From a virus: DNA of 24,962 bases. Positions 183 through 22,616 of this stretch are shown one piece after another. The DNA is taken from the IMG/VR virus record IMGVR_UViG_3300037847_000523, positions 7,149 through 32,110 of that record; one strand, given 5' to 3'. The notes under the pieces are model-generated. The model saw only the letters and a program-made list of their open reading frames with translations. It was not told the DNA's origin and made no database searches. Position 1 is the first letter of the stretch, and each line of letters begins with the position of its first letter. The translations under genes and the position numbers were made by a program.

Positions 183-554
183 TTAGTCCTCCTCTATAGG
201 TTCTATTGGTGTTAATAAGTCTTTCATAATTACAAATATAGGAGTTCTATCTCCCATCCACGCTCCTTCAGTGTTGTATTCAAAGTATTCCATTGCTTCC
301 TCATATGCTTCATCCCCTACTGCCTGTACAACATTTAAACGTGTCTCTGCATCCATATCATCAAAATTATATTCTTTCTTTTTTTCTTTATAAAAATCTC
401 TTGCAATTATTTCAATAGCTTTTTCTCTATCGTATATGGCGTAAGGTCCTTTGAACTGTTGATGTCCTAAACCTATAAAGGCTTCTTTTAAACCATCATA
501 GTATATAACTTCATCATCATTTTCTTCACAATGGAATATATCTTTGCTAGACAT
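183..554 (-). CDS. Hypothetical acidic protein, 123 aa
   Basis: A 123-aa acidic protein with many Asp and Glu residues, including the stretch EENDDEV near the N-terminus and EPIEED at the C-terminus. There is no signal peptide, membrane segment or cysteine cluster. The middle (about residues 40-60) is charged and probably helical; the phrase EGAWMGDRTPIFV near residue 97 looks like a beta segment. The ATG at 554 overlaps the last 8 bases of the bS21 gene (ATGTCTAG), with a GGGA-type ribosome site just inside bS21, so translational coupling to bS21 is likely. I do not recognise the family and assign no function. Its acidity could suit a protein that mimics DNA or binds a basic partner, but nothing shows this directly. 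Confidence 0.75.
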   Translation of the reverse strand: MSSKDIFHCEENDDEVIYYDGLKEAFIGLGHQQFKGPYAIYDREKAIEIIARDFYKEKKKEYNFDDMDAETRLNVVQAVGDEAYEEAMEYFEYNTEGAWMGDRTPIFVIMKDLLTPIEPIEED

Positions 555-729
555 CTTGTTCCCTACTCTTTCTTAACTTATTTGCTTTTTGTTGTTGTCT
601 CTTTACACTCTTAGGCACAAACTCTTGTTTCTGTCTATAAGTATTAAGGATATCGTCTTTTTGTAAATTCTTTTTAAAACGTCTTAATAGTTTTTCAAAT
701 GTTTCGTTTTTTCTTGCTGTTACTTTCAT
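547..729 (-). CDS. rpsU: Phage-encoded ribosomal protein bS21
   Basis: A 60-aa, strongly basic protein that I recognise as small-subunit ribosomal protein bS21. The pattern matches the family: KV near the N-terminus, NETF, the hallmark LLRRFKK block at residues 17-23, then a helix with R-x-K-Q-E-F and P-K-S-x-x-R, and a Lys/Arg-rich C-terminal helix. Sixty residues is close to cellular bS21 (about 55-70). bS21 sits on the 30S platform near the anti-Shine-Dalgarno end of 16S rRNA and acts in translation initiation, so a viral copy could replace the host protein and bias initiation; that role is inference. The chosen ATG at 729 overlaps the polymerase stop as TAATG. A longer reading from TTG at 738 lies inside the polymerase and is less likely. 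Confidence 0.88.
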   Translation of the reverse strand: MKVTARKNETFEKLLRRFKKNLQKDDILNTYRQKQEFVPKSVKRQQQKANKLRKSREQDV

Positions 730-2786: not shown

Positions 2787-3492
2787 CAATGCTTACTGCA
2801 TCTGATGGTACATCATCAGAGCTTGCGGTGTCATCAGCACCGTACCTCTGGTGAAGATACTCTTTAATAGGAGTAAGATTTTTTACTTCTGCTTGTTTAT
2901 CATCAGGTAATTCCATAGTGCCTGAAGTAGAAGTAATTGTGTATGTAGTGTCTAATGCACTACCTCTTCTTTTAACTCTAATGACAGACTTATCTAGTGT
3001 GCCATTATCTTCATAGATATCTACAAACTGATTCCAATTAGCGTTCTGTGCTCCAAAAGATAGAGTCATAACTTTAAAATCGTTTACAGTCTCTTTATAT
3101 AATTTACTACCAGAGGGGCTAGTTACTTCTTCCCAACTATCAACTCTTTGTTCTGTGTGTAATATTTCAGTTACATACACCCACATAGCAAATTTATGTC
3201 TTGGAGCTCTTCGTCTCCCATCTTCGTATACCATAGCTTCACTTGGTACAGAGGCTACAGGTTCACCATTCTCAACTAGTACGCTAGTCCAGCTTTTCTC
3301 TATGCCTTGTTGAAACTCATAGACATGGAAATCATCTAGATGAATGTCACCTTCTTCTCCGGTAGCTATAGTTTTCATAAAAACTTGGTCTCCATCTTTA
3401 AGCCACACTTCTCTTCCAGTTGACTCATTTGATTGTGATGACCTGTTTTCTCTACTTTGTATATTGTTTTGTATCATACTGATTCCTGACAT
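2761..3492 (-). CDS. ssb: Single-stranded DNA-binding protein
   Basis: A 243-aa protein whose body is rich in beta-strand-like segments (WLKDGDQVFMKT, HKFAMWVYVTEIL, YTITSTSG) with aromatic and basic residues suited to an OB fold. It ends in a very acidic tail, DDDDDSLF, the classic SSB C-terminal tip used to recruit replication proteins. The first 30 residues are polar and probably disordered. It lies between primase and DNA polymerase in the replication operon, starts after a clear GGAGGA ribosome site, and its last bases overlap the polymerase start. It would coat single-stranded DNA at the fork and bring in polymerase or helicase. The tail and position are direct evidence; the OB-fold assignment is by pattern only, so distant families of phage SSB or recombination mediators remain possible. 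Confidence 0.78.
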   Translation of the reverse strand: MSGISMIQNNIQSRENRSSQSNESTGREVWLKDGDQVFMKTIATGEEGDIHLDDFHVYEFQQGIEKSWTSVLVENGEPVASVPSEAMVYEDGRRRAPRHKFAMWVYVTEILHTEQRVDSWEEVTSPSGSKLYKETVNDFKVMTLSFGAQNANWNQFVDIYEDNGTLDKSVIRVKRRGSALDTTYTITSTSGTMELPDDKQAEVKNLTPIKEYLHQRYGADDTASSDDVPSDAVSIDDDDDSLF

Positions 3493-3502
3493 GTGTCCTC
3501 CT

Positions 3503-4366
3503 TTACCAGTATCTTTTATTTTTGATTACATTACTTAGTATATCATAAGATTTTATATCCTGCACATCTTTATATTCTTTAGGTATATTGATGTAAGATA
3601 CTTTTATTTTATTACCTAGTAAACTCATTGCTCTTTTCAATCCCCGTTGCCCAGCTTCATCGTTATCTAAACATAGTATAAGTTCATTTGTAGGTAAAGT
3701 CAATAGTAAATCTCTTTGTTTTTCAGACATGCTCATACCTAATAGTGCCACTGATGGAAAACCAAGTTGGTCTAACCACATAGTATCTAAAGGTCCTTCC
3801 GTTACACATACATAATTTGTTTTTTGCACATGAGGTTGTCCAAATAATACATGGGATTTCTTCAAACCCCTAGAATATAAATACTTAGGTATCTGTTTTT
3901 CTTGTCTAGTAATCCATCCCACAGTTCTAACAGCCTTATCATGCACTGGAATAATTAATCCATTTGCTGCACTTACTCCACAGTTCCATTTTTTCATGGT
4001 TTGTTTAGTAAACTGTCTATCAAATATCCATCTAGGCACTGCCCCAAGATTGTAAGGAATCTTAACCATAGGTAATTCTTCGTCTACTTCTGTAGTAGGA
4101 ACAATAAATAACTTTTTATTGTAAGTATCTTTATAACTTACAAGATATTGATTAACCTGTTTGAAATCCCACTGTTTATATTGCTCTATAAAAGATTTTA
4201 AACTACCTTGCCCACATCCAGCAAAACAAATCCATACCCCTTTTTCTAAGTTTATTGAGCAAGACTCTGAGGTATCATCATGAAAAGGGCACAATATAGA
4301 TAGCTCGTCACTACCCACAGGTATATCTATGTTTAAATTTAGTAACGCTTGTGTCCAATCAATCAT
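3503..4366 (-). CDS. DNA primase, CHC2 zinc finger plus TOPRIM
   Basis: A 287-aa primase that makes RNA primers at the replication fork. The N-terminus carries a CHC2-type zinc finger (C26-P-F-H29, then C47-F-A-G-C51). The TOPRIM catalytic centre follows: EGPLD with E190, and DNDEAG with D234 and D236, the metal-binding acidic residues. No helicase domain is attached, so this is a stand-alone primase partnered with the separate DnaB-type helicase nearby, unlike the fused T7 gp4. I chose ATG 4366 because it lies 7 nt after the upstream stop, follows an AGAG ribosome site and puts the zinc finger at the usual place. Upstream frames at 4396 or 4456 would overlap the zinc-ribbon gene and add residues that look unlike primase. 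It ends about 10 nt before the SSB start. Confidence 0.93.
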   Translation of the reverse strand: MIDWTQALLNLNIDIPVGSDELSILCPFHDDTSESCSINLEKGVWICFAGCGQGSLKSFIEQYKQWDFKQVNQYLVSYKDTYNKKLFIVPTTEVDEELPMVKIPYNLGAVPRWIFDRQFTKQTMKKWNCGVSAANGLIIPVHDKAVRTVGWITRQEKQIPKYLYSRGLKKSHVLFGQPHVQKTNYVCVTEGPLDTMWLDQLGFPSVALLGMSMSEKQRDLLLTLPTNELILCLDNDEAGQRGLKRAMSLLGNKIKVSYINIPKEYKDVQDIKSYDILSNVIKNKRYW

Positions 4367-4373
4367 AGCAGCT

Positions 4374-4577
4374 CTATATGCGGTATATGAAACCATTAAC
4401 TTCCTTCCAAAAACCGTCTGGGAATGTTGTGCCACATTGAAAACAATATGGGTCATTACGAACTAATCCTAAAACCTTTTTATTAAGTAAATCGTTTGTG
4501 TCAATAATTGTTTTACCAACGCGTAAAGTTCCCTTGTTGGAACATTTACCACATTTTATGCTAATTAAACGTGTCAT
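4374..4577 (-). CDS. Small zinc-ribbon protein, 67 aa
   Basis: A 67-aa protein with two CxxC knuckles, C9-G-K-C12 and C45-F-Q-C48, the spacing of a zinc ribbon; the linker is predicted to form beta strands. It begins at ATG 4577, 17 nt inside the end of the helicase gene, and ends 7 nt before the primase start, so it is embedded in the helicase-primase operon. Possible roles include helping load primase or helicase, binding nucleic acid, or modifying transcription. None of these is shown by the sequence. It is not obviously a detached piece of the primase zinc finger, because primase has its own complete CHC2 motif. Confidence 0.72.
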   Translation of the reverse strand: MTRLISIKCGKCSNKGTLRVGKTIIDTNDLLNKKVLGLVRNDPYCFQCGTTFPDGFWKEVNGFIYRI

Positions 4578-5799
4578 GATTCTCCTCTATTCTTCCAATA
4601 TCTACATCCCAGATAAACTCTGTAGTGCTTTGACCTAAGTCTCCATCTCTGTATTTCTGAAATGCTATCTCTCTCAGTTGAGGCTCATCTTCAATCATAC
4701 ACATAGATATCGCTATGTCTGATGCCCTAATCAAAGCATCTCCAAAAGCTACTTGACCTGCTGTAGGTTGAGAATACATGTTTGCTGCATCTCTTGTAGC
4801 TTGGGTTGAAGCGATTACTGTGGTATTAGTAGACAATGCCATAGTTTTAAGTCCATAAAATAAAGAATGTGACTGTTCCCATGCAGCTTTATTCTTATCT
4901 GCCGTAGAAACTAAGTACACTCCATCAATAATTAGTACGTCTGGACTGTATTTACGCACTAAATTAGTTATACTTGGTAAAGATATGCTGTCTTCCCCAC
5001 TAATGTGGTCACATACTAACAAGTTTTTGTAATTTACTTCTTCTAAAAAGCGTTTATATTCGCCTTCATCTATCTCTTTTCCGTTTCTAAGGGCACTATG
5101 AGACAAATTGTAGCCTAATGAGTGTCCTAATAGCACATCCATACGCAAAGCTATAGAAGATGTAGGCATTTCAGTAGATACTAGTAGTGTTTTATGCCCA
5201 CTACGCACTGAATCAGCCGCTAACTTGCAACATAACCAAGTTTTACCCACTGTAGGTCTTGCATAAGACGTAATTAAGTCTCCGGGTTGCCAACCAACAC
5301 CTGATGCATTAATTAAATGGAAAGGGGTGCGTATTCCTATCAAACCATCTCCCATTTTCCTAATTTTACTACGCCTTTGCCACTCTTCATACCTATCTAA
5401 CTGCCCATTATCATACTGATTCACGTCTTCATCGTGTAATATCTCAATATCACTAAGACCTTCAATCAAACTACCTAATGCTTTCTTAGGATTCTCATCT
5501 AATATAGCTTGATTTGAGTTAATAGTGCTGACTATGTTCCTAAACATAACCTGTTTACTAAACTCATCAAGTGCATAATTGAAGTTTACGGATTGAGCAT
5601 CAGGTTTTAGAGTATCAAAGTTCTCTATCAACAGACTAGGCTTAGGAAAGTCTTTATATGTATCTATATGGTCTTGTATAAACTTAAAAGTTTCTCCGTG
5701 CTCTGCAAAATCTTTAGGTGAATAAGTAAAATTCTTGTAATTACTAGATTCACACAGACTAAATATCACTGCAGACTCTATAAAATTATAATTTTCCAA
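4561..5799 (-). CDS. dnaB: Replicative DNA helicase, DnaB/RecA-like
   Basis: A 412-aa DnaB-type hexameric helicase that unwinds DNA ahead of the phage fork. The N-terminal ~145 residues are a divergent helical domain. The RecA-like motor follows: Walker A ARPTVGKTW at 180-188 (K186, T187), catalytic Glu in STEM (E210), Walker B VLIID with D292, sensor STQATR (Q333), and the arginine-finger region QKYRDGDLG (R384). The start codon is TTG at 5799, preceded by an AGAG ribosome site; the next in-frame Met is near residue 85 and would remove half the N-terminal domain. It starts 2 nt after the sigma-like gene stop and overlaps the zinc-ribbon gene by 17 nt. A KaiC-like or T4 gp41-like label is possible, but DnaB family is the best call. 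Confidence 0.93.
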   Translation of the reverse strand: MENYNFIESAVIFSLCESSNYKNFTYSPKDFAEHGETFKFIQDHIDTYKDFPKPSLLIENFDTLKPDAQSVNFNYALDEFSKQVMFRNIVSTINSNQAILDENPKKALGSLIEGLSDIEILHDEDVNQYDNGQLDRYEEWQRRSKIRKMGDGLIGIRTPFHLINASGVGWQPGDLITSYARPTVGKTWLCCKLAADSVRSGHKTLLVSTEMPTSSIALRMDVLLGHSLGYNLSHSALRNGKEIDEGEYKRFLEEVNYKNLLVCDHISGEDSISLPSITNLVRKYSPDVLIIDGVYLVSTADKNKAAWEQSHSLFYGLKTMALSTNTTVIASTQATRDAANMYSQPTAGQVAFGDALIRASDIAISMCMIEDEPQLREIAFQKYRDGDLGQSTTEFIWDVDIGRIEENHDTFN

Positions 5800-5801
5800 T
5801 A

Positions 5802-6344
5802 CTATTTCTCTTCGTTTAATTTATTTCTAAGCGACTTTTTCACTTTGTATATCGAATAGTTTACCACAACTTCTTGCCCATTGACAATCTTTGTGTCAGA
5901 AATGCTTTTTAATTTTTCCTCTATGTCTTTCATAGTGTGATTTTGAAACTTCTTTAGTAAAAACTCTTTTTCACCTTTATCTAGATTAAGTGAATCTAAA
6001 TAGTCTACAAACTCAACCTCATCTAAATTGTCATCTAATTGTTTTACAAAGTCACTTAGTTTATAAGAGTTACCATCCTCAGATGTTTCTAAATCTAAAC
6101 TATATCCTTGTATTTTTTTACTTGCTTGCATCCATAATGTTTTTAATCTATTGACCATAGCCGTGTGTAAATAAGTATGGAATATAGCATTTCTATTTGG
6201 TTTATATAATTTAGCCGCTTTTAAAACTATCATTCGTAATTCTTGTGCAAGGTCATCTCTATCATAACCTTGTATATAAATGTTTGACAACATTTTATTA
6301 ATCTTCGGCTCCCACTGTAATATTAGGTCGTTGTCTATTTTCAT
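5802..6344 (-). CDS. Sigma-70-like RNA polymerase sigma factor
   Basis: A 180-aa protein resembling a compact sigma factor. Residues 8-75 match region 2, with GYDRDDLAQELRMIVLKAA followed by FHTYLHTAMVNRLKTLW, the core-binding and -10 recognition helices. Residues 113-175 look like region 4: SLNLDKGEKEFLLKKF, then a helical segment and a basic C-terminus. It would direct host RNA polymerase to phage promoters; T4 gp55, also about 185 aa, does this for late genes. I chose ATG 6344, which overlaps the preceding gene by 47 nt. ATG 6395 would add 17 residues and overlap by 98 nt. It sits directly before the helicase, so replication and transcription control share an operon. An ECF-like or other helical DNA-binding protein is the alternative. 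Confidence 0.8.
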   Translation of the reverse strand: MKIDNDLILQWEPKINKMLSNIYIQGYDRDDLAQELRMIVLKAAKLYKPNRNAIFHTYLHTAMVNRLKTLWMQASKKIQGYSLDLETSEDGNSYKLSDFVKQLDDNLDEVEFVDYLDSLNLDKGEKEFLLKKFQNHTMKDIEEKLKSISDTKIVNGQEVVVNYSIYKVKKSLRNKLNEEK

Positions 6345-6717
6345 GTTTTCTTTGTTTCCTATATGTTTGATAGCAATCTCTTGTGCAATAAACATTCTTT
6401 AGTTTTAATCTATATCCCTGCATTACTCTTTTTCTGCTCCTATAAAAAGGAACTCTGCAAAAAGAACAAGTCAGTCTTATTCTATTCCACTTAAATCTAC
6501 ATTCACCATCATGTAGTCCGTAACGGTCCGTGGTTGCCAACCTACATACTTTACAGTATACCACAGGTTTAGGTTTAGGCGGGTTGGTTTCTAGATTATT
6601 CTTGAGTAAAACTCTTCTTGCATACGATATATCTGCCCCTGCTCGTCTTGCAATTTCAGATGTAGACATAAAAGGGTTTTGTTTCCTTAGTCTAACAACC
6701 TTATTCTTTACCTTCAT
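6298..6717 (-). CDS. HTH plus zinc-finger protein, putative regulator
   Basis: A 139-aa basic protein. Residues 17-40 form a helix-turn-helix-like segment (STSEIARRAGADISYARRVL), typical of DNA binding. The rest carries two cysteine groups: C55/C58/C73, and C84-x2-C87 with C111-x3-C115, the latter looking like a treble-clef or HNH-associated zinc site. Arg and Lys are abundant (RSRKR, YRKQRKHENRQR), consistent with nucleic-acid binding. No HNH catalytic histidines are evident, so a nuclease is not supported. It begins inside the last 17 nt of the hub gene and runs into the sigma-like gene, linking the structural block to the transcription and replication block. It may be a transcription regulator or sigma partner; that is inference. 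Confidence 0.75.
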   Translation of the reverse strand: MKVKNKVVRLRKQNPFMSTSEIARRAGADISYARRVLLKNNLETNPPKPKPVVYCKVCRLATTDRYGLHDGECRFKWNRIRLTCSFCRVPFYRSRKRVMQGYRLKLKNVYCTRDCYQTYRKQRKHENRQRPNITVGAED

Positions 6718-9700
6718 TTTCTAATTTATCTACTTTATCAGATAACTCTTGTATTGCTTTAATTAAAGGAGCAATAAATTCTGTGTACGCTAAACCCATC
6801 TTAGTTTTTTTAACATCTCCCTTTACTCCGCTGACTAAAGAAAAACCTTTTGGGTCTAAATCCATATCTTTTAACAACTGTTCTACATCTTGAGCAATTA
6901 AACCGTGTTCAATTTTACTAGCTTCTAATCGAGTATATTTAGATGGCTTTAATTTTTTTACAAAGTCTAATCCAAATTCTGAAGGTTCAATATTTTCTTT
7001 TAAAGTTTTGTCAGATGATGTATCATCAGGATTAGCCGAATACACTTTTTTCCATGCAAAACTACTATTCCCTAATTCAAATCCAGTAGTGCCATTAGAA
7101 TTTACAGTAGGCAGCCAATTTTTATTTACATTACCAGTTAGACCTCTACCACCAATAACACCTGATGGGAATCCTTTAGTATTCGCTGTATTTGAATTTT
7201 CTCCATCTGTAGCTGCCCCAACACTAATAAAATACTCTATAGCGACATCACTACCCGTAGCATTAGGAGTTATTTTAGCAATCTTAAGTCTATTAAGACC
7301 TATAGGTGAGTGTTTATTATTGCCAGATGTTGTGTTACTACCCTCTTCGGAGTTCCTTTGTTGAAACTCTGATTCTGTTTTTACATAAAAACGAGTTTTT
7401 GATAAAGCAGGCTCAAAAAACATTACATAAGATACATCAGACATGCCATCATTATCAGAATCATTTGTAGCCATGCCTGCTCCGATACCATATGTGCCAT
7501 CTCTACTATCTGTTGCAGTTATTCTGTAGGTCTCTGTCCCTACATATAAAGTCCCTGTTCCGTAAGTCACAGTATCATCATTTGTTCCAGCTACAGCACT
7601 TCCTGTAGAGGTATCATCTGATGTTTGACCTGCAAAAATTTCACCTGTAAAGTGTGGTTTATATGGCGTGAAGTTGTATGTACCTCCGTAATCATCATCA
7701 GTATCATCATCTATATTGCTATAATCAGGCATTCTTGCTGCAATCACATCAGCTGAATCATCATTGTAAGACACTGTTTCAATATCTGTAAACGCCTCAC
7801 TAGCAGTTTCTTGATACATCATAGAAGTTACTAATCCACGTCCTCCTTTTAAATCACCTCCACCTACAGCAACCCCATGCACTAATGAGGTCATTTGTAT
7901 CATGTGCCCCGGAGTTAATGGAATAGCAAATCTTAAATAATCATTTGCGGCAATACTACCAGATTCTAACATAAAACCTAGACTAGGGTTAGAATTATCA
8001 TTACTATTTCTTACAAAGTTTAAATATCCATGAGTGCTAACATTTCCACCATCTCCATCTAGTTTCATAATAGGCATGCCAGCTCTCATACCCGTAAAAG
8101 GGTATCCAACTGCCGTAAAATTATTCCCACTATCAGTTAATCCACTACTTATGTTTGCGTCAGTGTATTCTACATAAGTTCTACTGCCGACAGTTGTTTC
8201 AGTAATTGTATCTCCGCTTGATGGTATTTGAACTTGAAAACTTTCAGACGGGAATTGCCCTAAAGTTTGAAACCTACCTCGTAATTTAGGTCTGCTTTGT
8301 TGTAAAAATCTAGCTGCAACTGCTTCTCTAATGTGTTGAAAGTTAACATCATTTCCAAATTCCATAGTTATAGCCACTCTTTTTTCACTGGTTGCTTGAG
8401 GTCTAAATGAATTTGGAGCGTTAGGGTCAGTTACTGAAGATAAAACTTTAGTGTTACCACTATCTTTATTATCAAGATAAATTGTTTCTCCTGCAGCTAC
8501 ATCACTGCCACTTCTAGCTGTACTAGTCCCTGATAATACTAGTAAACCAGCAGAGTTAGAGCTAAATCCTGCATACTGTACATATCCAATTATATTGTTA
8601 CTTGCATCAACAACTCTACTTCTAAAATTAGCTTGGTCACTTACAGATTTTAAATCTGGGTCATGTGAACCATTAACACCTGCAATGTCTTCTCTAGTAG
8701 CTACTAGTCTAAGACTTGCAGCACTATTTGGTAGGTATGCTTGAGAAAAATGTAAATCACTAAAAGCTCCTCCCGTTCCTACATAAAAGGCTTCCATTTC
8801 AAGCTCTCTCATGAATCCTGATATGGGGTCTCTATACCTTACGTTAATTATGTTAACATTTTCTGTGTCAAATTCATCAAAAGATACATTTGATATCATT
8901 CTTTTTCTAGTCCCATTTTCATCTGGTATAGTAGAACTAAAATTATTAAATAACAATCTACCGGCAGTAGACGCATTTCCTGAATCTGCACTAGGTTGAA
9001 ATCCTATGGGATAATAATTTAATACTGGGGTGGGTTTTAAACCCGTAGAAAAATTATACTGATTAGGGTCGGTGTGAAAATAATAACCTAAAGTGCTTCC
9101 TGCAGGGCTTTTATCAGTAAGAGCTAATCTCTGCATAGTATGTAATACTCTATCTTTACTGCTAGCAAAAGATATTCTACCATTTCTAGCACTACTTTCT
9201 TTTGCTGTATGAGATGGTTGAAATCTAGGTTCAGCGTTTGATGCTATAGGCTCTATCATAGTTAATACAGACTCTGTGCCATCTGTACCCCCAAATTGAT
9301 ATCTTTGGGCTAATAGCTTAATTACAGAAGATATCTTTCTGTCAGAGGCATCTTCTGTGTAGCCATCAGATTGAGCACTACTATCTACATCAAAATCTAT
9401 TTCTGCTCCGTCACCGGTTATAGCACTTCTACCTAACTCATATAATGCATCATAAGCTGTTAATTGAAGGGTTGTTCCTGCAGCATTATCATATTGTCTG
9501 GTAAGTGAATGTACTCTACCCCTAAACATTGCAATAAAATTAGCTCCATTAATGACTTTTATTGGGGTTCCCTCTTTTATCACATTATCTAGTATACCTA
9601 CATCAGTTAAAACATTAGCTCTTGATGGGTTACTTAATACTAATTGTAAAGAGTCTGGTTGATATAAAGTTTTTTCTAAACTTAATTGTTGTGTTAAAGA

Positions 9701-10552: not shown

Positions 10553-11620
10553 TTAATATCCTCCAGTAGTGCCTAATCTAGCCGATTGTCTATCAATGCC
10601 AAATTTACTTACTTCTTGTGACCCTATAAATCCTGCACTTGCAGATTGAGGGTACATTTGTGAACTTTGAACAGCTCCTATAGCGTCCCCATAATCAGAA
10701 CGACCTCCTCGTACTCCACCAGTATTTATTTCAGCACCAACAGCACCTACTCCGCTTCCTCCCATTAGAGCGTTTGCAATATTACCTCCTAATACAGCAC
10801 CTCCAAGTGAACCTATAATTGTTCCAACCACTCCAAACATGCTTCCTAATATTGCTCCTAAAGCTGAAGTTAAAGTTATTACAAAGAATCTACCTAATGC
10901 TTTTATACCTTGTTCAATTCCTTGCTCTCTAAATGTTGCTGCTATATTTACACCAGAAAAAAGTAATCCCACAAAACCAGCACTTCTAACAAAGGCGTTT
11001 AATCTACTGACTGTGCCCGTCATCATACTAAATACTGTGTTACTTACTACTGCTGAAGAACCTGTTTGTAATGCTGCTACTATACCGGGACCTAAAGCCG
11101 CCGCTCCTAATCCAGTTATAATGTCAGACAACCTTAATCTACCATCTGCAGACACCCCATCTTTATCAAATAAATTTATTATGGGTCTAAATACATTACC
11201 TAATGCTCCTGCAATAGAACCTAAAATTTGACCTACGCCTTGAAATAAAGCTACTAATCTAGGAAAAGTTGCTTCTGAAATTCTAGCTACTGTAGGAAGA
11301 AAGTTAGCTAAAGCTGATAACCCTGTAGCAATTAATGGGGCTAGTGGAGCTAAGATAGTATCAATCGCTGCTCCTATGATTTGAAATAAAGCACCTAAAG
11401 AGTTAGTAAATATCTGTGAGTTTTTTAACAACGCAGCTATACTTACTTGTATTCCTAACAATGCTAAAATATTCTTTTGTCTTTGACCTGCAGCCACTGC
11501 ATTATCTTTTCTACGTTGAATATTTTCATTTAATTGATTTATATTCGTAGCTCCCTGAGTAGCAGCAGTTCTAGTTGCATCTTGCAACAGATTAAAATTT
11601 ACTGTATATTCTTCAGCCAT
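10553..11620 (-). CDS. Tape measure protein, short (355 aa)
   Basis: A 355-aa protein with the composition of a tape measure: a polar helical N-terminus with Asn/Gln-rich heptads (TNINQLNENIQRRKDN), then several hydrophobic helices rich in Ala, Gly, Leu and Ile (about residues 48-70, 75-110, 130-145, 165-190 and 245-290), and a flexible Gly/Ser tail. It lies after the tail assembly chaperones and before the distal tail gene, the standard place. Tape measure length sets tail length; at roughly 0.15 nm per residue this would give about 50 nm, a short tail. That number is inference. Many tape measures exceed 700 aa, so this is small. A membrane-active pore or holin-like protein is a less likely alternative. 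Confidence 0.75.
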   Translation of the reverse strand: MAEEYTVNFNLLQDATRTAATQGATNINQLNENIQRRKDNAVAAGQRQKNILALLGIQVSIAALLKNSQIFTNSLGALFQIIGAAIDTILAPLAPLIATGLSALANFLPTVARISEATFPRLVALFQGVGQILGSIAGALGNVFRPIINLFDKDGVSADGRLRLSDIITGLGAAALGPGIVAALQTGSSAVVSNTVFSMMTGTVSRLNAFVRSAGFVGLLFSGVNIAATFREQGIEQGIKALGRFFVITLTSALGAILGSMFGVVGTIIGSLGGAVLGGNIANALMGGSGVGAVGAEINTGGVRGGRSDYGDAIGAVQSSQMYPQSASAGFIGSQEVSKFGIDRQSARLGTTGGY

Positions 11621-11622
11621 AT

Positions 11623-11859
11623 TTAAAACCCTTTAGTTGATTTCGGAAAATGTGTAGGATGTGCTTTAGCAGCTTCTTGATGTCTTTGTTGTCTTTCCAT
11701 TTGCTCTGATTTATAATCCTCAAGAGAATGGCTCATCGCTAAAAACATAGCTGCCTCAGTATTATCCAGTTCCTTTATCTCCTTATAACTTAATCCTAAA
11801 TTTAATAGCGTCAACGTGGTTGCAAAGTGCGTAAATAAAACCGATTCTTTTGTTGACAC
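11623..11859 (-). CDS. Tail assembly chaperone downstream part (T-like)
   Basis: A 78-aa segment starting at GTG 11859, helical and charged toward its C-terminus (YKSEQMERQQRHQEAAKA). It follows the first chaperone (11883-12257) and precedes the tape measure, as lambda T follows G. The same frame is open upstream to 11901, so a -1 slip at the A7 run (11889-11895) would join it to the first protein as a ~211-aa fusion, adding residues RIDRFLRGIKV before this segment. Independent translation from GTG is possible, but its ribosome site is weak (GGA about 9 nt upstream). In lambda, the GT fusion binds the tape measure and tail tube protein to build the tail. It overlaps nothing and ends 2 nt before the tape measure start. 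Confidence 0.78.
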   Translation of the reverse strand: MSTKESVLFTHFATTLTLLNLGLSYKEIKELDNTEAAMFLAMSHSLEDYKSEQMERQQRHQEAAKAHPTHFPKSTKGF

Positions 11860-11895
11860 TTTTATTCCGCGTAAAAATCGGTCTATCCTTTTTTT
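11840..11895 (-). other. Programmed -1 frameshift signal (slippery A7 and hairpin)
   Basis: On the coding strand the codons are ATA AAA AAA GGA TAG, giving the heptamer A AAA AAA (11895-11889) in the X XXY YYZ register needed for a -1 slip. The zero-frame stop is two codons on. After a 6-nt spacer, ACCGATTTTT (11882-11873) can pair with AAGAATCGGT-type sequence (11849-11840), a 10-bp stem with one G-U pair and a 23-nt loop. The loop sequence GTCAAC (11857-11852) can pair with GTTGAC downstream (11815-11810), which could make a pseudoknot. The -1 frame has no stop before the T-like segment. I paired these by eye; no folding was run. Confidence 0.8.
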
Positions 11896-12257
11896 ATTAC
11901 GTCAACCTCTGCGAAATTAGAATCAAAAGCTGAAGGCACTAATTGTTCTAAAGCAGCTCCTAGCTCTTGATTTATTGTGAGTAAAAACTCATCTGTGGTG
12001 TCACCCCAAGGAGCTTCCACTATAATTTCTTTTAACACTTCTTTTATGTAAATTCCACTATCAAAAGTAGAACTACCTTTATCATCAAACTTCATACATC
12101 TAGCAACCAATTCGTTTTTACCTTGCCATGTCATAGGTTTGATAACTATGTCAAACTCATCTTCTGCTAGTTTTACTGTATATGTCTGATTCTCTTCTTT
12201 AATTTTATACTTAGATACATCAAATGCTTTTGATGCACCGTTTGACTGTTCTGTCAT
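11883..12257 (-). CDS. Tail assembly chaperone upstream part (G-like)
   Basis: A 124-aa protein with a beta-rich N-terminus (YTVKLAEDEFDIVIKPMTW) and a helical C-terminal half (ELGAALEQLV), typical of phage tail chaperones of the lambda gpG or phi29-like DUF class. It starts at ATG 12257 after AGGAGA, and ends at TAG 11883 just past the slippery A7 run. It follows the tail tube gene and precedes the tape measure, the conserved chaperone position. Most ribosomes would make this short form, and a fraction would make the fused form with the next segment. The family is assigned by position, size and the frameshift, rather than a sequence signature. Confidence 0.8.
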   Translation of the reverse strand: MTEQSNGASKAFDVSKYKIKEENQTYTVKLAEDEFDIVIKPMTWQGKNELVARCMKFDDKGSSTFDSGIYIKEVLKEIIVEAPWGDTTDEFLLTINQELGAALEQLVPSAFDSNFAEVDVIKKG

Positions 12258-12268
12258 TATGTCTTCTC

Positions 12269-14050
12269 CTATGTATATACTTTTTCTGTATCTGTTACTA
12301 CAATTTTTAAGTTTCTGCAGCTAAACTCTGCTCCTACTTGTAAAATAGGTTCTCCACTAATTGGGTGTGGAGCTGATGTTAAGAAAGCACCATTTTCTCC
12401 TAATCCTGTAGCTGCCCCTGTGGTTTCATCTGCTGAGGTGTAATCTGATGGGATAAGTATTTGTATACTATCATCAGTTCCTCTAGTAAATGTAAGTTCA
12501 ATATTGAATCCTTCCATTCCACTTCCATAGTTACCTTCCATCAACAGTTGTTTAAAAAACTCTGTTGCTGAATTTCTACTTATTCCTGTAGCAGATGCCG
12601 CACTATCTGGCAGTGCTAAAGTACAGCTTAAACTGTAACTTCTTCTGCCTTCTCTAATTTCGGCTGGACCTCTGTGTCTACCAAATCTTGGAGATATATA
12701 GTATCTAGATTCCTCACCATTTGTAATGCTTAAGTTAAAACTTCTAACTCTAGCAAATTCTTGACCCATAAATTTAACAGAACCTTGTGAGAAATAAAAA
12801 GGTTCAGTAGAAGGCAAATTAATATCTGAAGATAATATATCAGCCATTTCAGAAAACCTAGGCATACCTGCAGAGAATGAATCCCCACTGAATAAACCTG
12901 TGTTATTAGCTTCAGAACCCGGATTTACGTTAGGTTGTGATACGTTTTCTTGGTTGTGCATCATATCTAAAAACTGCACTGTATCCCAACTTGTCATGAG
13001 CATACTACCTTCATCAGCAGATATTGTACATGAACCTACAAATCCCCCAACGTATCTTCGGTCAAAATCATTAGCAGCTGTTTCGCTACTATCTCTCATG
13101 TGTGCATGCCAAGTCATAGTATCTAACAATACTGACTCAACTATGTGATGCTTTATTGTAGCACCAGAGCTTACCTCTCTAGCGGCAGAGTCATCTGGGT
13201 GGTCAAACCTAAAAGGTTTTTCTAATCTTGCTACGTTTGTGCTTGGAAATGCCGCAATCCTTTGTATCTCTTGACTTGTGTCATCAACTGATGTGCCTGT
13301 TCTAGGCGTTGCACTACTAGAAAATGATATAAAATCTCCAGCACTATAACCATGCCCCGCATCTAATGTTACGTAAATATCACCTTTACTTACAGCACCA
13401 TCAATATCTGTGGTTGCAGATTCTACTGCAGATGGTACATCAAACACATTTCCGATAGCCCACCTTAAAGGTTTACCATTCAACGGTATGAATCCCGGTA
13501 ACGCTCCTGTAAATGATTGTGCTCCAATATACATTTTAGTCCAGTCTCTTTTTTGACCTACACCTAAAAAGTATCTTGGTTCATAAGAAGGAGTTAAATC
13601 TGGCAATGTAACTGACTCGTATACACCCGGAACTTCAGTAATTACTTTTGCTTGTTGGGTTGTACTTGAACCATCTATTTCAACAATATTAGCATTGTTA
13701 GCATGATTAAATCCTATAGGTCTATCTAAAAATATAGTCCCTGTTTTAGAGCCACTACTACCAGAAGTAGTAAAATGTTCTACTCTCCTAATTTCAAAAG
13801 GCACTACTGTTGAAGCTCCTGCGTTTGCAGATTCTGATATTGCACCTATTCTTACAAAGTCTCCTACAGTAAGCGTATTAGTGCCTGTGTCATACGTAAG
13901 CTGAGTAACCCCCGCTGAATGAGCTGCTGTTAACAACGCATGAAAGGGATTACTAGATACTACTGACCCGTTATTTAATTCTACATCTCCTCCCGGAGCT
14001 GATTCCATCGCATACGTTAGTTGCGATTGGTCTGACCGAAATACTGCCAT
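12269..14050 (-). CDS. Major tail tube protein, large (593 aa)
   Basis: A 593-aa protein, beta-rich and Ser/Gly/Asn-rich, with no signal peptide. It comes just before the chaperone pair and after the tail-completion gene, the standard tail tube slot. The N-terminus (MAVFRSDQSQLTYAMESAPGGD) is like those of other tail tube proteins. Segments such as VKFMGQEFARVRSFNLSITN and GFNIELTFTRG match strands of the tube fold. It is two to three times longer than typical tube proteins (about 150-250 aa), so extra surface domains are likely, for example in residues 60-300. The gene is preceded by AGGAGG and by an AGTATAATAAA motif. A tail sheath is an alternative, but no separate tube gene follows, so tube is preferred. 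Confidence 0.68.
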   Translation of the reverse strand: MAVFRSDQSQLTYAMESAPGGDVELNNGSVVSSNPFHALLTAAHSAGVTQLTYDTGTNTLTVGDFVRIGAISESANAGASTVVPFEIRRVEHFTTSGSSGSKTGTIFLDRPIGFNHANNANIVEIDGSSTTQQAKVITEVPGVYESVTLPDLTPSYEPRYFLGVGQKRDWTKMYIGAQSFTGALPGFIPLNGKPLRWAIGNVFDVPSAVESATTDIDGAVSKGDIYVTLDAGHGYSAGDFISFSSSATPRTGTSVDDTSQEIQRIAAFPSTNVARLEKPFRFDHPDDSAAREVSSGATIKHHIVESVLLDTMTWHAHMRDSSETAANDFDRRYVGGFVGSCTISADEGSMLMTSWDTVQFLDMMHNQENVSQPNVNPGSEANNTGLFSGDSFSAGMPRFSEMADILSSDINLPSTEPFYFSQGSVKFMGQEFARVRSFNLSITNGEESRYYISPRFGRHRGPAEIREGRRSYSLSCTLALPDSAASATGISRNSATEFFKQLLMEGNYGSGMEGFNIELTFTRGTDDSIQILIPSDYTSADETTGAATGLGENGAFLTSAPHPISGEPILQVGAEFSCRNLKIVVTDTEKVYT

Positions 14051-16817: not shown

Positions 16818-18038
16818 TTATGTATTGCTACTATTTCCTGCTACTGTTCCATCACTTGCATCATCAAGGACATCACCGTAACTTGTATCGTTGCTGTGTA
16901 TATTTAAACCATAAACTACGTTGTCATTTGCACCACTTAGTAACCTCACAGCATCACCTGCTGCATCTGCACTTTGCATTTCTATTGTAGAAGCAACAAT
17001 TAGTGCGTCATCATCTGCACTGGCTATACCACCACCATCATGATTGCTGTTACTACTACCTGCACTGCTTTCCATTTCTAAAAATTGAAAACCACTTAGT
17101 ATGCTTTTTTTGTAAAGGTAACTGTTGTCTGGCTCATTGTGATTACTTGTTGAGTCTGTAAATCCTGCAACAACACAATTCCTTATATGCATTTTATCAG
17201 CATTACCTCTAAAGACCTGCCTATGACTACTAAAGTCTGCCAGAATAAATGATAGATAATAATACTCACTATTCCGTGTCGTTAACATTGCACCCGGTAC
17301 ACCATTAGAATTTGACATTGTTCGTGTACCATTAACCATTCCTACAGTGCAATTTCTAAAGTCTACAAATTCAGGCGACTGACCACCATGACTTATTGCA
17401 CGATAATCGCTTGAAGCACTAAATTTGTGAGGTGCGTATGACATGCTCATAACGTCATAAGCCTCGTAACCACAGTGGAACGTACCAAAGCCGTCATCTA
17501 CATCACCCATTGCTGGGTCTTGTACGCCGGGGTTGGTGTCAACTATTGCCATCTCACCTGAATGCTTCATGTATGTTTCATAACCAGTACCTTGAAATGT
17601 ATAAGGTTTAGTTGCTATCTCGTCACCAAGCGTTGTGCTTACAGTGCTACTACCACTGCCTGTAAAGTTTACGTTTGTAATATCAGCAGCACCTACTGCA
17701 TTTACATTTGAGCCATATGCTGCGTCAAAAAGTAACGGTTGCATTGCACTTGTGCCTGCTTGTAAATTTAACGTAGTGTATTCTGCATTAAAATAATGTA
17801 AGTCAGATATTGTTACACCAGTTTTCCAAGTCATATCTTTTCGTGGTACTTCATTAGTAGCTGACCAGTCGACTTGTGCCATGTTGCCTGTAAACATTAT
17901 ATTGTTACCTGCTTCTAAAACAGCAGTACAATCGGCACTGCTTGTAACACTACTTACATTTTCAAACTCGCCATCAATACCATGTATGTAGTTTGGTGTA
18001 AATTTTTGATGTGAAAAATAATTAAATGTTTCTGCCAT
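16818..18038 (-). CDS. Repeat-rich, probably beta-helical virion protein, 406 aa
   Basis: A 406-aa protein rich in Ser, Asn, Gly and Asp with short strand-turn repeats (VDFRNCTVGMVNG, MHIRNCVVAGFTD, VVYGLNIHSND), the look of a right-handed beta-helix such as in tailspikes or depolymerases. No catalytic motif was recognised. Its ATG overlaps the upstream stop as TAATG, with GGGA nearby, so it is coupled to the next fibre-like gene. It is the third of three adjacent similar proteins and the most diverged. Likely a receptor-binding or virion surface protein; that is inference from fold-like composition and position. Confidence 0.7.
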   Translation of the reverse strand: MAETFNYFSHQKFTPNYIHGIDGEFENVSSVTSSADCTAVLEAGNNIMFTGNMAQVDWSATNEVPRKDMTWKTGVTISDLHYFNAEYTTLNLQAGTSAMQPLLFDAAYGSNVNAVGAADITNVNFTGSGSSTVSTTLGDEIATKPYTFQGTGYETYMKHSGEMAIVDTNPGVQDPAMGDVDDGFGTFHCGYEAYDVMSMSYAPHKFSASSDYRAISHGGQSPEFVDFRNCTVGMVNGTRTMSNSNGVPGAMLTTRNSEYYYLSFILADFSSHRQVFRGNADKMHIRNCVVAGFTDSTSNHNEPDNSYLYKKSILSGFQFLEMESSAGSSNSNHDGGGIASADDDALIVASTIEMQSADAAGDAVRLLSGANDNVVYGLNIHSNDTSYGDVLDDASDGTVAGNSSNT

Positions 18039-19072
18039 TATAAAGTCCCTAACTCGTTATTTCCTACTTGACTGTTCGTAGCGTTTGTTCCAATACTAGC
18101 CTTGTTACCACCTCTATTACCTGCCATAACCATTCTGTCAGCACTGCTTGTCTGACGTATCGGTTCTGCAGATGTACCTTTTGCATCATTCCAATAAACC
18201 AAGTTACCTGAAAAAACAACATTATCTTCTGATACTTCAGCACCATAACTGCCACCATGTGCTACGTGATTAAATAAAACAATGTTACGTTTACCAGCAA
18301 CAGTAAGATTTATACCACCTGTATAAACTGGCTGTATGTGGTTTTCTACGAATCTTGTTGTACCAGCAACAAGAGCAACTTGACCACCACCCCCTGTAGT
18401 ATCTTGTCCTGCACTTATAGAGCTATCGTACCCACCTAAAGTACCAAACCAGTTATTTGTAATTAAATGCCCACACGCTATCGCACCATGCGTACTACCA
18501 TTTACATACATTGAATATTTACCACTGCCATTTGATGAGCCGTTATATAAAACCATAAAATTTGTTTTTTCTACAATGCACCATTTTGTTGGTGTGCTTA
18601 CTGCATTACCATCACTTGCTTGTCTACCAATAACACATGCATAAGTAGTTTTACCTGACGCAGTTTCTAATGCAACTTTTGTATTCATACCACTGCCTTC
18701 CCAATGTGTGTAGTCGCCATTAATCTGCAAAGCGTATTGAGTATTGTCGTTATAGTCATTAGGGTCACGAGTTATAAAAGTTTTACCTAAACATTTAATG
18801 TGATTACCTACACCAACTGTTGAACTTGTGTCAGCACCTATAAGTATGCCATTGTTAAAGTTAACATCATTGTGTATTGTAATTTTATTGTAATCACCTG
18901 ACACTACAAACTTGCCATCAAATCTGCAACCAGCATTTATAATAATTACATTGTAATCGCCTGCAATTTCCACAGCAGTATATCTACCTCTAGTAAATAC
19001 AATTCTTTCGTACTCTTCGCTGTGTATTCCACTATGTCCTTCTATATTTATTGTTTGTGCATATTTAGGCAT
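18038..19072 (-). CDS. Beta-helix-like virion protein, 344 aa
   Basis: A 344-aa protein with regular repeats of about 20 residues: GDYNVIIINAGCRFDG, GDYNKITIHNDVNFNN, and GNHIKC, a pattern seen in right-handed beta-helices with an Asn ladder. No catalytic residues were recognised and there is no signal peptide. It shares the phrase GC-x-FD/LD with the 357-aa neighbour, so the two are probably paralogues. It starts at ATG 19072 after AAGGAGA. As a likely virion fibre or spike it could bind host surface sugars. Confidence in the fold is moderate. Confidence 0.75.
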   Translation of the reverse strand: MPKYAQTINIEGHSGIHSEEYERIVFTRGRYTAVEIAGDYNVIIINAGCRFDGKFVVSGDYNKITIHNDVNFNNGILIGADTSSTVGVGNHIKCLGKTFITRDPNDYNDNTQYALQINGDYTHWEGSGMNTKVALETASGKTTYACVIGRQASDGNAVSTPTKWCIVEKTNFMVLYNGSSNGSGKYSMYVNGSTHGAIACGHLITNNWFGTLGGYDSSISAGQDTTGGGGQVALVAGTTRFVENHIQPVYTGGINLTVAGKRNIVLFNHVAHGGSYGAEVSEDNVVFSGNLVYWNDAKGTSAEPIRQTSSADRMVMAGNRGGNKASIGTNATNSQVGNNELGTL

Positions 19073-19080
19073 GTATCTCC

Positions 19081-20154
19081 TTAATCATTAGTCAACGCTG
19101 TTATACTTCCACCAACTGCTACATTATTGGTTTGTGTGCCATTAGAATTGCTTGGGTCTTTAAATATACTTGCTACGCATGTACCAGTTGCTTCTTGTGA
19201 CATGTTGCTAGCACTATCCCAAACGCAACCGTAAATTAATGTGTACGGCTCATACATACCTAATGACGCAGTTTGACCATCACTATCTAAGTATGTACCT
19301 ATTAATTGCGAATGTGGGGCTCCATAGTTTTGTATGCCAAAATTATTATTTGCTGAACTTCCTGTTGGCAAAGAAGTTGCACTGCCATAAGGACTATTGC
19401 CTGAACAATCCTGATAACTATAAATAACTTTAGAACCATAGCCATTACCATTACTATTGCTTGCACTACCTGTTCCTGCTATCGGTCCTAATTTAAAAGT
19501 GCCGTGTTTATAACCACCATTATTTTCGGTATTAGTACCACCCGGACTAGCATAGTCAGACAAGCAATTATAAAAGGTAGTATGTGGTGCAGAAGCATGC
19601 CAGTCTGCTGTTGACACATAAGAACCGTTATTAGGTCTATTTCTACCCCTTAAATTTTTGAATGTGTTATGTTCTGCTGTACCACTAGAGTTATATGCTG
19701 CACCTGCACTATGTGGACCTACTAATATTGAAGTCCAGTTAGCACCTTCAACTGTGTTGTAAGAGCCACTTATAACACAAGCCATACCATTGCCACCGTC
19801 TGTGCTGTTTCTAGCATTTGGTGTTCCATTATCTGTTATCACAGAGTTTGGACCTATATACACATAATTTCTGTCACCCGTAATACTTATCATGCCATTT
19901 GACTTATCACCTGTCATTGTTAATTTTGGACCAAAAATAACAGTGCATTGGTCTGCTGTAATTCTTAATGAATCTAGTGTGCAACCACCATCAAACTCTA
20001 TAATACATTTGTTTGTTGATAATGTGACATCACCATACGAACCACGCTTTACTAAATGATAGCCTGCAGTTGTTGGGACAGTACCACCATTATAAGTGAC
20101 ACTATCATAAGGCATAGCATGGTTAGGTGCGTTACCGAAAAAATTATCTGGCAT
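19081..20154 (-). CDS. Beta-helix-like virion protein, 357 aa
   Basis: A 357-aa protein with the same kind of short strand repeats as its neighbour (NKCIIEFDGGCTLDS, QCTVIFGPKLTMTG, GDRNYVYIGPNSVIT, GSYNTVEG). This suggests a right-handed beta-helix, followed by an Asn/Ser/Gly-rich region (residues 200-300). The N-terminus MPDNFFGNAPNHAMPYD may anchor it to the virion. It starts after AAGGAGG, 9 nt after the small MAQDF protein stop. It is the first of three adjacent beta-helical genes. A role in receptor binding or surface decoration is inferred; no enzyme motif was recognised. Confidence 0.75.
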   Translation of the reverse strand: MPDNFFGNAPNHAMPYDSVTYNGGTVPTTAGYHLVKRGSYGDVTLSTNKCIIEFDGGCTLDSLRITADQCTVIFGPKLTMTGDKSNGMISITGDRNYVYIGPNSVITDNGTPNARNSTDGGNGMACVISGSYNTVEGANWTSILVGPHSAGAAYNSSGTAEHNTFKNLRGRNRPNNGSYVSTADWHASAPHTTFYNCLSDYASPGGTNTENNGGYKHGTFKLGPIAGTGSASNSNGNGYGSKVIYSYQDCSGNSPYGSATSLPTGSSANNNFGIQNYGAPHSQLIGTYLDSDGQTASLGMYEPYTLIYGCVWDSASNMSQEATGTCVASIFKDPSNSNGTQTNNVAVGGSITALTND

Positions 20155-20163
20155 AATTCCTCC

Positions 20164-20493
20164 TTACGATGATGCTGTATCTATAGCACTAACTATTGCT
20201 TGTGTATCGTTATTAGCCCCTGTGGTTATATCTGCGTGTAAAATATCGCCATTTTTCAAGACCATTTTAGCACCGCCTGTTAGTAATTGTACTGATGAAC
20301 CTGCTGGTAAACTAAGTCCTTTTGCAACGTGATATTTTGTAGAACTGTTTTCAACATATACATCTAAAACATTATCGTCTGTATCTGAATTACATAACAT
20401 AATACCAATTATAACGTCATAATCTCCAGCGGTCCAAATTGCTGGAGCAGACGTTGTTACTAGTGTAAGTTGGTTTCTAAAATCTTGTGCCAT
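20164..20493 (-). CDS. Small MAQDF-type fibre-associated protein, copy 2
   Basis: A 109-aa protein, paralogous to the one at 22250-22576: both start MAQDF, share PAGSS-x-x-L and GG-x-K-x-VL-x-x-GD-x-L, and end in a D-x-x motif. Beta-rich with no cysteine pairs except C34. It directly follows the 557-aa fibre, as its paralogue follows the 761-aa fibre, so it may be a cap, adaptor or accessory for its fibre. An AGTATAATAAA motif and GGAGA lie just upstream. Marine phages commonly carry such small proteins next to fibres, but the function is unknown. Confidence 0.78.
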   Translation of the reverse strand: MAQDFRNQLTLVTTSAPAIWTAGDYDVIIGIMLCNSDTDDNVLDVYVENSSTKYHVAKGLSLPAGSSVQLLTGGAKMVLKNGDILHADITTGANNDTQAIVSAIDTASS

Positions 20494-20521
20494 ATTTAAG
20501 GTCTCCTATATTTATTATACT
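20476..20521 (-). repeat. Duplicated promoter/5' end, copy 2 of MAQDF gene
   Basis: The first codons of the 109-aa gene, its ribosome site and the AGTATAATAAA motif match the same region of the 108-aa gene at 22559-22602 almost base for base, apart from a 2-nt indel just before the ribosome site. This marks a segmental duplication that included the regulatory region. Confidence 0.7.
20511..20521 (-). promoter_or_regulatory. Putative late promoter motif, MAQDF copy 2
   Basis: AGTATAATAAA on the coding strand, 17 nt before ATG 20493, followed by GGAGA. It fills the 31-nt gap after the 557-aa fibre gene. Confidence 0.58.
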
Positions 20522-20524
20522 ATA

Positions 20525-22198
20525 TTATGTTGCTAATGCAAAAACTAAAGCTCCTACTGCATCCACTCCCCCTGACGCAGTTAATTGTGAGCTAGAAACT
20601 GATATACCTGAACCTGCAATCGCACTTAGGAAGTCATCAATACTTTCTACAATTACATCTCCAGTCGCACCACCATCTAAGAAGAGCATGTGGTCACTAG
20701 CTTGTGCTACTGTATCTGCACTAGCCACGCTAAATAATTTAGTAGCTAAAGTGTCTAATCCAATTCTTTTAACAGTTCCTCCGTCTGAATATAAAAGTTC
20801 ATCTGCTGCATTTAAACCAGAAGTAATTTCTGTTTGTCCTGAAATAATATTGTCATTTAACATTCCTGATTCAACAGCATCATTTGCTATTGTAACTGCA
20901 CCATTTGATGCTAAAGTAATATCACCACTTACAGCTACTGGGTTGTAATTTGTGTCATCACCAACAAGAATGTGTCCTGCTGTATTTGTGTTCATAAATA
21001 AATCATCACCAGTAATTGTTAAATCCCCAGAAATTGTAAGATTACCTCCTGAACTTAAAGACATTTTTTCAGCTGCGGCTTCTGATGAACCTGTTAAAAA
21101 TGATAGTTTAGTAGCGTTACTAGAAGCACTAAAGTCTCCTTCAGATACCGCCTCAATACCGGCTGCTACTAAAATAGCATCAGTGCCTGAACCTTCATCT
21201 GGAGCTTTGAAAAATATTGAACCTAACACATCATTTGCTGCTATGTCATTATCACCCGCATGGAAAGAAAAACTTGGTTCTTTTCCATCTGCAGTGCCTA
21301 CATGTTTAAGTATTAATCCATCATCTGCAACGTGTGTTAAAGTTATTTCTTGGTCATTACCAAATAATATCTGACCACCGTCTGCTAAAAATAAATCAGA
21401 CCATTCTGCTGAAGCAGAACCTAATGCTTGTCCGTCAGCACTTGTTGGTGTGTTAGATGCTACATCGGAAAACGATAATACAGCACTACCATTTGTTACT
21501 AATGCTTGTCCATTAGTTCCGTCAGATGTAGGTAAACTAAACGCAGTACCCCCAGAGGTAATAATTACTTTGCTGCCGTCTGAGGCGATTGATTCATTTT
21601 GGTCATGTAATTGTAATGTAGGTGTGCCTCCAGAATCTGTAAGTCTTAATCCTGTGTCTGCAATGTGAGTTAATTTTATTTCACTATCTGCTCCAAAATT
21701 AAGGACTGCATCATCTGATAATAGGGATACATCATCACCAAATACTGTATCTAATGCTACGCTTAATCCACCATCAGTTTGTAATGAACCATCAGTTGTA
21801 GATGTAGCATTAGTAGTGCTATTTGTTTGGATAACACCACTCGCAGTTATAGTGCTTGAAGTCAATGCTGCTGTTGCAAGTGTACCTCCTGCTACAGTTA
21901 AAGTATTAGCAGAGTGTGTCAGTGTTACATCACCGTTATTTAAATTTATGACACTACCACTTGCAAGAAATAAATCAGACCACATAAGGCTAGTTGTACC
22001 TAATGCAGTCCCATCGCTTGCACCCGGAGTCAAAGCATTTTCTACTAATACCATTTCTTTCGCGTTATTAGCGTGAAAGTTTATAGTATTAACATCCGCA
22101 AAATCTATTTTAGTTTCGTCATCTTCACCAATTTTAAAATCTGTTTCTAAAATTTGATTAATTGGTGTCTCAGCCGGTTGATTTCCGATATATCCCAT
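20525..22198 (-). CDS. Repetitive tail fibre-like protein, 557 aa
   Basis: A 557-aa protein of repeated beta-rich modules. The unit SDLFLA-x-G, followed by an I-x-L-x-N/G-x-D-x-x-I/V-x-LTH strand pair, appears three times (around residues 70, 155 and 265), as in marine phage fibre and virion structural proteins. GDLTITGDDLFMNTNTAGH near 390 closely matches the 761-aa fibre, so they are paralogues. The N-terminus MGYIGNQPAETPINQ is typical of phage fibre starts. The end is Ala/Gly/Ser-rich. It would form trimeric fibres on the virion. A 51-nt gap upstream holds an AGTATAATAAA motif. The host receptor is unknown. Confidence 0.8.
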   Translation of the reverse strand: MGYIGNQPAETPINQILETDFKIGEDDETKIDFADVNTINFHANNAKEMVLVENALTPGASDGTALGTTSLMWSDLFLASGSVINLNNGDVTLTHSANTLTVAGGTLATAALTSSTITASGVIQTNSTTNATSTTDGSLQTDGGLSVALDTVFGDDVSLLSDDAVLNFGADSEIKLTHIADTGLRLTDSGGTPTLQLHDQNESIASDGSKVIITSGGTAFSLPTSDGTNGQALVTNGSAVLSFSDVASNTPTSADGQALGSASAEWSDLFLADGGQILFGNDQEITLTHVADDGLILKHVGTADGKEPSFSFHAGDNDIAANDVLGSIFFKAPDEGSGTDAILVAAGIEAVSEGDFSASSNATKLSFLTGSSEAAAEKMSLSSGGNLTISGDLTITGDDLFMNTNTAGHILVGDDTNYNPVAVSGDITLASNGAVTIANDAVESGMLNDNIISGQTEITSGLNAADELLYSDGGTVKRIGLDTLATKLFSVASADTVAQASDHMLFLDGGATGDVIVESIDDFLSAIAGSGISVSSSQLTASGGVDAVGALVFALAT

Positions 22199-22214
22199 AC
22201 TTTAATCTCCTTAT

Positions 22215-22225
22215 TTTATTATACT
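22215..22225 (-). promoter_or_regulatory. Putative late promoter motif, 557-aa fibre
   Basis: AGTATAATAAA on the coding strand, 16 nt before ATG 22198, with AAGGAGA between. It lies in the 51-nt gap after the 108-aa gene. Confidence 0.58.
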
Positions 22226-22249
22226 ATTTTTTCTATATATGTTTAAATT

Positions 22250-22576
22250 TTATTCACTAATTGTGTCTACTACACTGCACCATACGTCTAATGCGTTGTC
22301 CGTATCACAATCTACTTTTAATGTATCACCACTAACTAAGACTATTTTACTACCCCCATCAATTAATTCTAAAGATGAACCAGCAGGGATAGTAGCACCT
22401 TTAACTAAAAAATAATTAGCACTACTTCTTGTAATAAAACAATCTACAGTAATTGCTGCTGTATGAATATTAGCAAGACGTAATCCTACAATGGCATCAT
22501 CACTATTAGCAACTCTAATGTCTGCCCCTGAAGTGCCAGTGCTTCTGGCTATGCTGTTTTCAAAATCTTGTGCCAT
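22250..22576 (-). CDS. Small MAQDF-type fibre-associated protein, copy 1
   Basis: A 108-aa protein, beta-rich, starting MAQDFENSIARSTG and containing PAGSSLELIDGGSKIVL-x-SGD-x-L, shared with the paralogue at 20164-20493. It follows the 761-aa fibre gene, and the same fibre plus small protein order is repeated next door. It may cap or organise the fibre tip or attach it to the virion. An AGTATAATAAA motif lies 15 nt upstream with GGAGA. It has two Cys residues (in VDCFIT and VDCDT) but no CxxC motif. Function unknown. Confidence 0.8.
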   Translation of the reverse strand: MAQDFENSIARSTGTSGADIRVANSDDAIVGLRLANIHTAAITVDCFITRSSANYFLVKGATIPAGSSLELIDGGSKIVLVSGDTLKVDCDTDNALDVWCSVVDTISE

Positions 22577-22602
22577 ATTTAGTCTCCTATATTTATTATA
22601 CT
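22559..22602 (-). repeat. Duplicated promoter/5' end, copy 1 of MAQDF gene
   Basis: Counterpart of 20476-20521. The shared stretch covers the first codons (coding MAQDF), the GGAGA ribosome site and the full AGTATAATAAA motif. Near-identity in a non-coding stretch suggests a fairly recent duplication, or conversion, relative to the more diverged coding parts. Confidence 0.7.
22592..22602 (-). promoter_or_regulatory. Putative late promoter motif, MAQDF copy 1
   Basis: AGTATAATAAA on the coding strand, 15 nt before ATG 22576, with GGAGA between. It lies in the 40-nt gap after the 761-aa fibre gene. Confidence 0.58.
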
Positions 22603-22616
22603 TACTTTCTAGTTAT

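Follow-up and report, generated by a model that had tools for sequence, protein, structure and literature searches.

The tail assembly chaperone gene of this uncultured virus very probably uses a programmed −1 ribosomal frameshift of the lambda G/GT type. This reading, put forward in an original prediction made from the window (the whole 24,962-nt stretch analyzed here, positions 7,149 to 32,110 of IMG/VR record IMGVR_UViG_3300037847_000523), is supported by conservation in relatives, covariation in a downstream stem, family profiles and gene order. The G-like zero-frame open reading frame (11883–12257; this and all other window features below are on the minus strand) encodes 124 aa ending in VIKKG, and its 3′ end reads GTA ATA AAA AAA GGA TAG. 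It contains, base for base as predicted, an in-frame slippery heptamer A_AAA_AAA at 11895–11889, followed by G and separated from the TAG stop by a single codon, so that the 6-nt spacer GGATAG (11883–11888) includes the zero-frame stop. The predicted open −1 frame and fusion length were likewise reproduced: the last upstream stop in this frame is TGA at 11904–11902, the frame is open from 11901, and after a slip it would continue as a T-like extension of 88 aa plus stop (11621–11889; KK-RIDRFLRG after the shift), reading RIDRFLRGIKVSTKES...KGF. The predicted fusion is 123 + 88 = 211 aa.

To judge how much weight these features can bear, we compared them with chance expectation. The window is AT-rich and holds eight A7 runs, against 14.4 expected from shuffles; such runs are, if anything, rarer than expected, and an A7 run by itself is not unusual and lends no support taken alone. 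Its position is more distinctive: the 27 probable genes contain about 50 in-frame XXXYYYZ heptamers, and the one at 11895–11889 is the only one no more than 50 nt from a stop codon. Folding of the single downstream sequence gives an unexceptional score (z = −1.06), and covariation was used instead. The significance of the arrangement rests on its conservation in relatives.

We collected relatives with several probes. The chaperone and T open reading frames as queries gave five close loci; the tail-tube gene, a query that does not contain the slip site, gave 26; and 80 viral loci, some of them shared with the tube-derived set, were reached through a profile of two motifs away from the slip site. 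After deduplication, 66 distinct fusions remained, which form 39 clusters at 65% identity; the junction was excluded from the probes. In all 66 loci, A_AAA_AAA-G is present in frame, 3 to 15 nt ahead of the zero-frame stop and in most cases 3 nt from it, and at every locus examined a recognizable T domain continues in the −1 frame. This includes all 26 loci reached through the tail tube, each with the A7 run and a conserved −1 extension. The same chaperone profile also finds three contigs whose genome assemblies bear the labels Maricaulis, Daviesbacteria and Nanoarchaeota, and these carry the chaperone and the A7 arrangement as well; the contigs may be prophage or misbinned virus. Relatives that lack the A7 run and keep two separate, well-initiated genes were sought across the 26, the overlapping 80 and the three additional loci, and none was found; nor did any of the 66 distinct loci fuse the chaperone and T in a single open reading frame or use A_AAA_AAG as the slip site.

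The conservation is visible at the level of single codons. In the 15 close sequences, the two lysine codons of the slip site are always AAA AAA, whereas AAG makes up 20% of lysine codons in the genes compared, and the codon before them is always ATA or GTA: the residue varies while the A is kept. The second open reading frame overlaps the slip site in −1 and is under protein-level selection. An artefact of sequencing or assembly, or a decayed gene, might be suspected, since homopolymers are prone to indels and the data come from metagenomes; this reading has a negligible chance of being correct, being ruled out by the recurrence of the arrangement in about 80 contigs from different samples and by purifying selection on both frames.

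The invariance of the homopolymer raises a second alternative, transcriptional slippage, in which RNA polymerase would gain or skip an A within the A7 run, the edited mRNA then being translated normally into the fusion. A homopolymer does stand at this site in every relative, and in one it is extended to A9. Such slippage needs no particular phase, yet the A_AAA_AAA phase is kept in 66/66 loci, and the run is nearly always of length seven; nor would it require the covarying stem and conserved pseudoknot codons described below. We consider transcriptional slippage a very improbable source of the fusion.

The RNA structure downstream of the slip site was analyzed in an alignment of 17 sequences. 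Stem 1 had been predicted as a 10-bp stem of 11882–11873 with 11849–11840, beginning 6 nt past the slip site, and these coordinates are correct; it includes one G-U pair, and an additional G-U at the foot brings it to 11 bp. These 11 pairs are formed in 98.9% of cells, with two-sided changes in three of them, the clearest being a U-A to C-G exchange in four sequences. The original prediction also paired loop bases 11857–11852 with 11815–11810, and GTCAAC is indeed the exact complement of GTTGAC. We found that this second pairing extends from 6 to 9 bp, between a 5′ arm at 11860–11852 (AGTGTCAAC) and a 3′ arm at 11815–11807 (GTTGACGCT), and that it is formed in 94.8% of cells. For the whole structure, 97.1% of cells are paired, and sliding the partners by one to three bases lowers pairing to 32–47%. 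Among the 17 sequences, two-sided covariation in stem 2 was not found; its changes are one-sided only, so that covariation in this stem is not decisive.

Evidence on stem 2 comes from codon usage. Conserved degenerate codons are codon-perfect in 4/6 cases when their third base falls in the stem arms, versus 2/42 elsewhere in the two open reading frames (p = 0.001). The four invariant codons are GTG and TCA in the 5′ arm of stem 2, TCG in the 3′ arm of stem 1, and TTG in the 3′ arm of stem 2 (15/15). Three of them are uncommon in the genes compared, where TCG accounts for 4% of serine, TTG for 11% of leucine and GTG for 13% of valine codons, and the leucine codons neighboring the TTG vary freely. 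This constraint on the stem-arm codons supports a pseudoknot, which now stands on firmer ground than the original prediction had claimed for it, with covariation in stem 1 and invariant uncommon codons in both arms of stem 2. The region downstream of the slip site probably forms an H-type pseudoknot, whose three-dimensional form we infer. Across the wider family, downstream folding lies in the lowest 10% of its own locus in 23 of 39 cluster representatives, compared with 4 expected, and is unremarkable in 12/66 loci. A downstream stimulatory structure, a feature common but not universal in the G/GT family, thus appears from the alignments to be present here.

One of the invariant codons deserves separate attention. 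The GTG at 11857–11859 is a possible start, in the list of open reading frames, for a separate 78-aa T protein, which could be made by reinitiation or translational coupling past the TAG, with no frameshift at all. The invariance of this GTG in the close clade, together with a GGA-like sequence upstream, fits such a start. The invariance is explained, however, by the position of the codon in a pseudoknot arm, and the GTG is lost outside the close clade. Furthermore, T-frame ATG, GTG and TTG codons are absent up to codon 12 in 29/66 loci and up to codon 25 in 11/66. The stretch between the slip site and the GTG also speaks against it: its −1 reading is conserved as RIDRFLRG, with most substitutions falling on third positions of −1 codons, and the stretch is therefore translated in −1, ahead of the proposed start. 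A separate T protein made in place of the fusion is thus an exceedingly improbable reading, while a product from GTG 11859 could exist in addition to the frameshift fusion.

We also considered the sequence upstream of the slip site. A Shine-Dalgarno-like AGAGG (11906–11910), a possible stimulator, lies about 10 nt upstream; like the rival GTG start, it had not figured in the original prediction. Its predicted anti-Shine-Dalgarno pairing of −7.0 kcal/mol is in the best 4% for the chaperone open reading frame. Most members of the close clade carry it, and it shows no family-wide enrichment: an internal Shine-Dalgarno element as a stimulator throughout the family was rejected, with only 14/66 loci in the best 10%. 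The AGAGG may therefore be a clade-specific helper at most.

Is the first gene indeed a tail assembly chaperone? The window protein alone gives no significant family match (best E 0.015, PHROG 25860), and a PHROG scan run directly on the window proteins yielded nothing useful. Through the alignment, in contrast, 54/64 members match PHROG tail assembly chaperones at E ≤ 0.1 (best 1.2e-6), and 29/64 match Pfam Phage_TAC_5 weakly, at E ≤ 1 (best 0.0026). Structure models were built from two alignments: with 17 sequences the model was of low quality (pLDDT 64), and with 64 sequences the pLDDT rose to 82 while the PDB match was still weak. In both models the top PDB match is YqbN (3KLU), which we take to be an XkdN-like chaperone, with probabilities of 0.72 and 0.84, E-values of 0.23 and 0.097, and a TM-score of about 0.45. 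A profile scan with the T domain returned no consistent family, and neither the chaperone nor the presumed tape measure protein had a match in protein searches of 50,697 annotated phage genomes.

Gene order supplies the remaining context. The original prediction placed the two frames between tail tube and tape measure genes, and the tube is borne out by homology, while the tape measure is assigned by position only. The 593-aa tail tube protein (12269–14050) matches tubes of haloarchaeal viruses (tblastn E 9e-5; BLASTP 24% over 235 aligned columns), and its only matches in the 50,697 annotated phage records are the tubes of HCTV-5, HVTV-1/2 and HHTV-2, at 24–27% identity. The presumed tape measure protein (355 aa, 10553–11620) comes after the chaperone, a position that the tape measure also has in HVTV-2 and HHTV-2; no sequence homology to the HVTV-2 tape measure was found, and none to HVTV-2 for the 156-aa gene that follows it. 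Taken together, the family profiles of the relatives, the homology of the tube and the gene order of HVTV-2 support the assignment of the 124-aa protein as a putative tail assembly chaperone.

Other genes of the virus were noted along the way. A 197-aa protein (5802–6395, −) has a significant match to Sigma-70 region 2, which suggests a virus-encoded sigma factor and, although the tube resembles those of archaeal viruses, a bacterial host. Our impression from the kind of matching records is that the source of the virus is marine. By reading only, the rest of the 32-kb record (positions 1–7200) appears to hold open reading frames for large-terminase-like, RecA-like ATPase and Holliday-junction-resolvase-like proteins. 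Similarly judged, the region 16818–24902 (−) encodes several long, repetitive, beta-rich proteins, in which the pairs 20164–20493/22250–22576 and 20525–22198/22617–24902 (−) are alike in design and seem to be duplicated genes for fibres or capsid decoration.

These results suggest the following course of events. The majority of ribosomes would terminate at the TAG and release the 124-aa G-like chaperone. A minority would be delayed at the slip site by the 11-bp stem, probably pseudoknotted, about 6 bases beyond it, perhaps with assistance from the upstream AGAGG, and would slip back by one base on A_AAA_AAA, with both lysine tRNAs re-pairing in the −1 frame. The shifted ribosomes would then complete the 211-aa fusion bearing the T-like domain. 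If the proteins act as they do in lambda, the G part would coat the tape measure protein, tube subunits would be recruited by the rare fusion, and the ratio of the two products would matter in tail assembly. The slippage itself, its efficiency and the roles of the proteins are what we infer from the comparisons above.

The element belongs to a known frameshift class, of which it is an unexceptional example in an uncultured virus group. It extends a known phage recoding device to a group in which the chaperone and presumed tape measure have no matches among the 50,697 annotated phage genomes, and the frameshift element, which is supported by covariation and is probably a pseudoknot, is directly testable. 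The fusion would escape automatic annotation, and chaperone genes in genomes of this kind can be located by means of the conserved A7 run. That A_AAA_AAA is the sole heptamer used poses a small puzzle concerning host tRNAs: in E. coli, shifting is weaker on it than on A_AAA_AAG (PMC5009743). It is conceivable, although we think it unlikely, that a large lineage of uncultured tailed viruses froze A_AAA_AAA-G, without the stronger A_AAA_AAG, as its proteins diverged to 33–40% identity, and that the site works in hosts with an unusual lysine tRNA pool or through combined ribosomal and transcriptional slippage, with a pseudoknot in some clades.

It is instructive to compare this arrangement with systems already described. 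The counterparts of lambda gpG/gpGT were reportedly surveyed by Xu, Hendrix and Duda in 2004. As in lambda, two small overlapping open reading frames lie between the tube and (here presumed) tape measure genes, and a −1 shift shortly before the first one ends would give a longer fusion. The lambda slip site is G_GGA_AAG; here it is A_AAA_AAA, followed by a covarying stem and a probable pseudoknot. In E. coli dnaX, the slip site is preceded at about 10 nt by a Shine-Dalgarno-like element and followed after 5–6 nt by a stem, an order of elements that recurs here around an A-rich slip site. The dnaX gene is unrelated, and it differs in that about half of the ribosomes shift on A_AAA_AAG to give a shorter product (PMC5009743), whereas A_AAA_AAA would here give a longer one. 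The likeness to XkdN/YqbN-like chaperones (Phage_TAC_5; 3KLU) consists of the weak matches given above (29/64, best E 0.0026; TM-score ~0.45). Further parallels are found in the haloarchaeal viruses, one of which has a G_GGA_AAT site (PMC7911831). HVTV-1/HVTV-2 and HHTV-2 share with this virus a homologous tube and the order tube, chaperone, tape measure, although their hosts are archaea and the sigma-70 region 2 gene suggests a bacterial host here. The HVTV-2 and HHTV-2 chaperones align with the profile built from this family (hhalign 89% and 96%, respectively). In HVTV-2 the heptamer near the end of the first open reading frame is G_GGA_AAG rather than A_AAA_AAA, and the annotation of the chaperone gives a putative programmed −1 frameshift.
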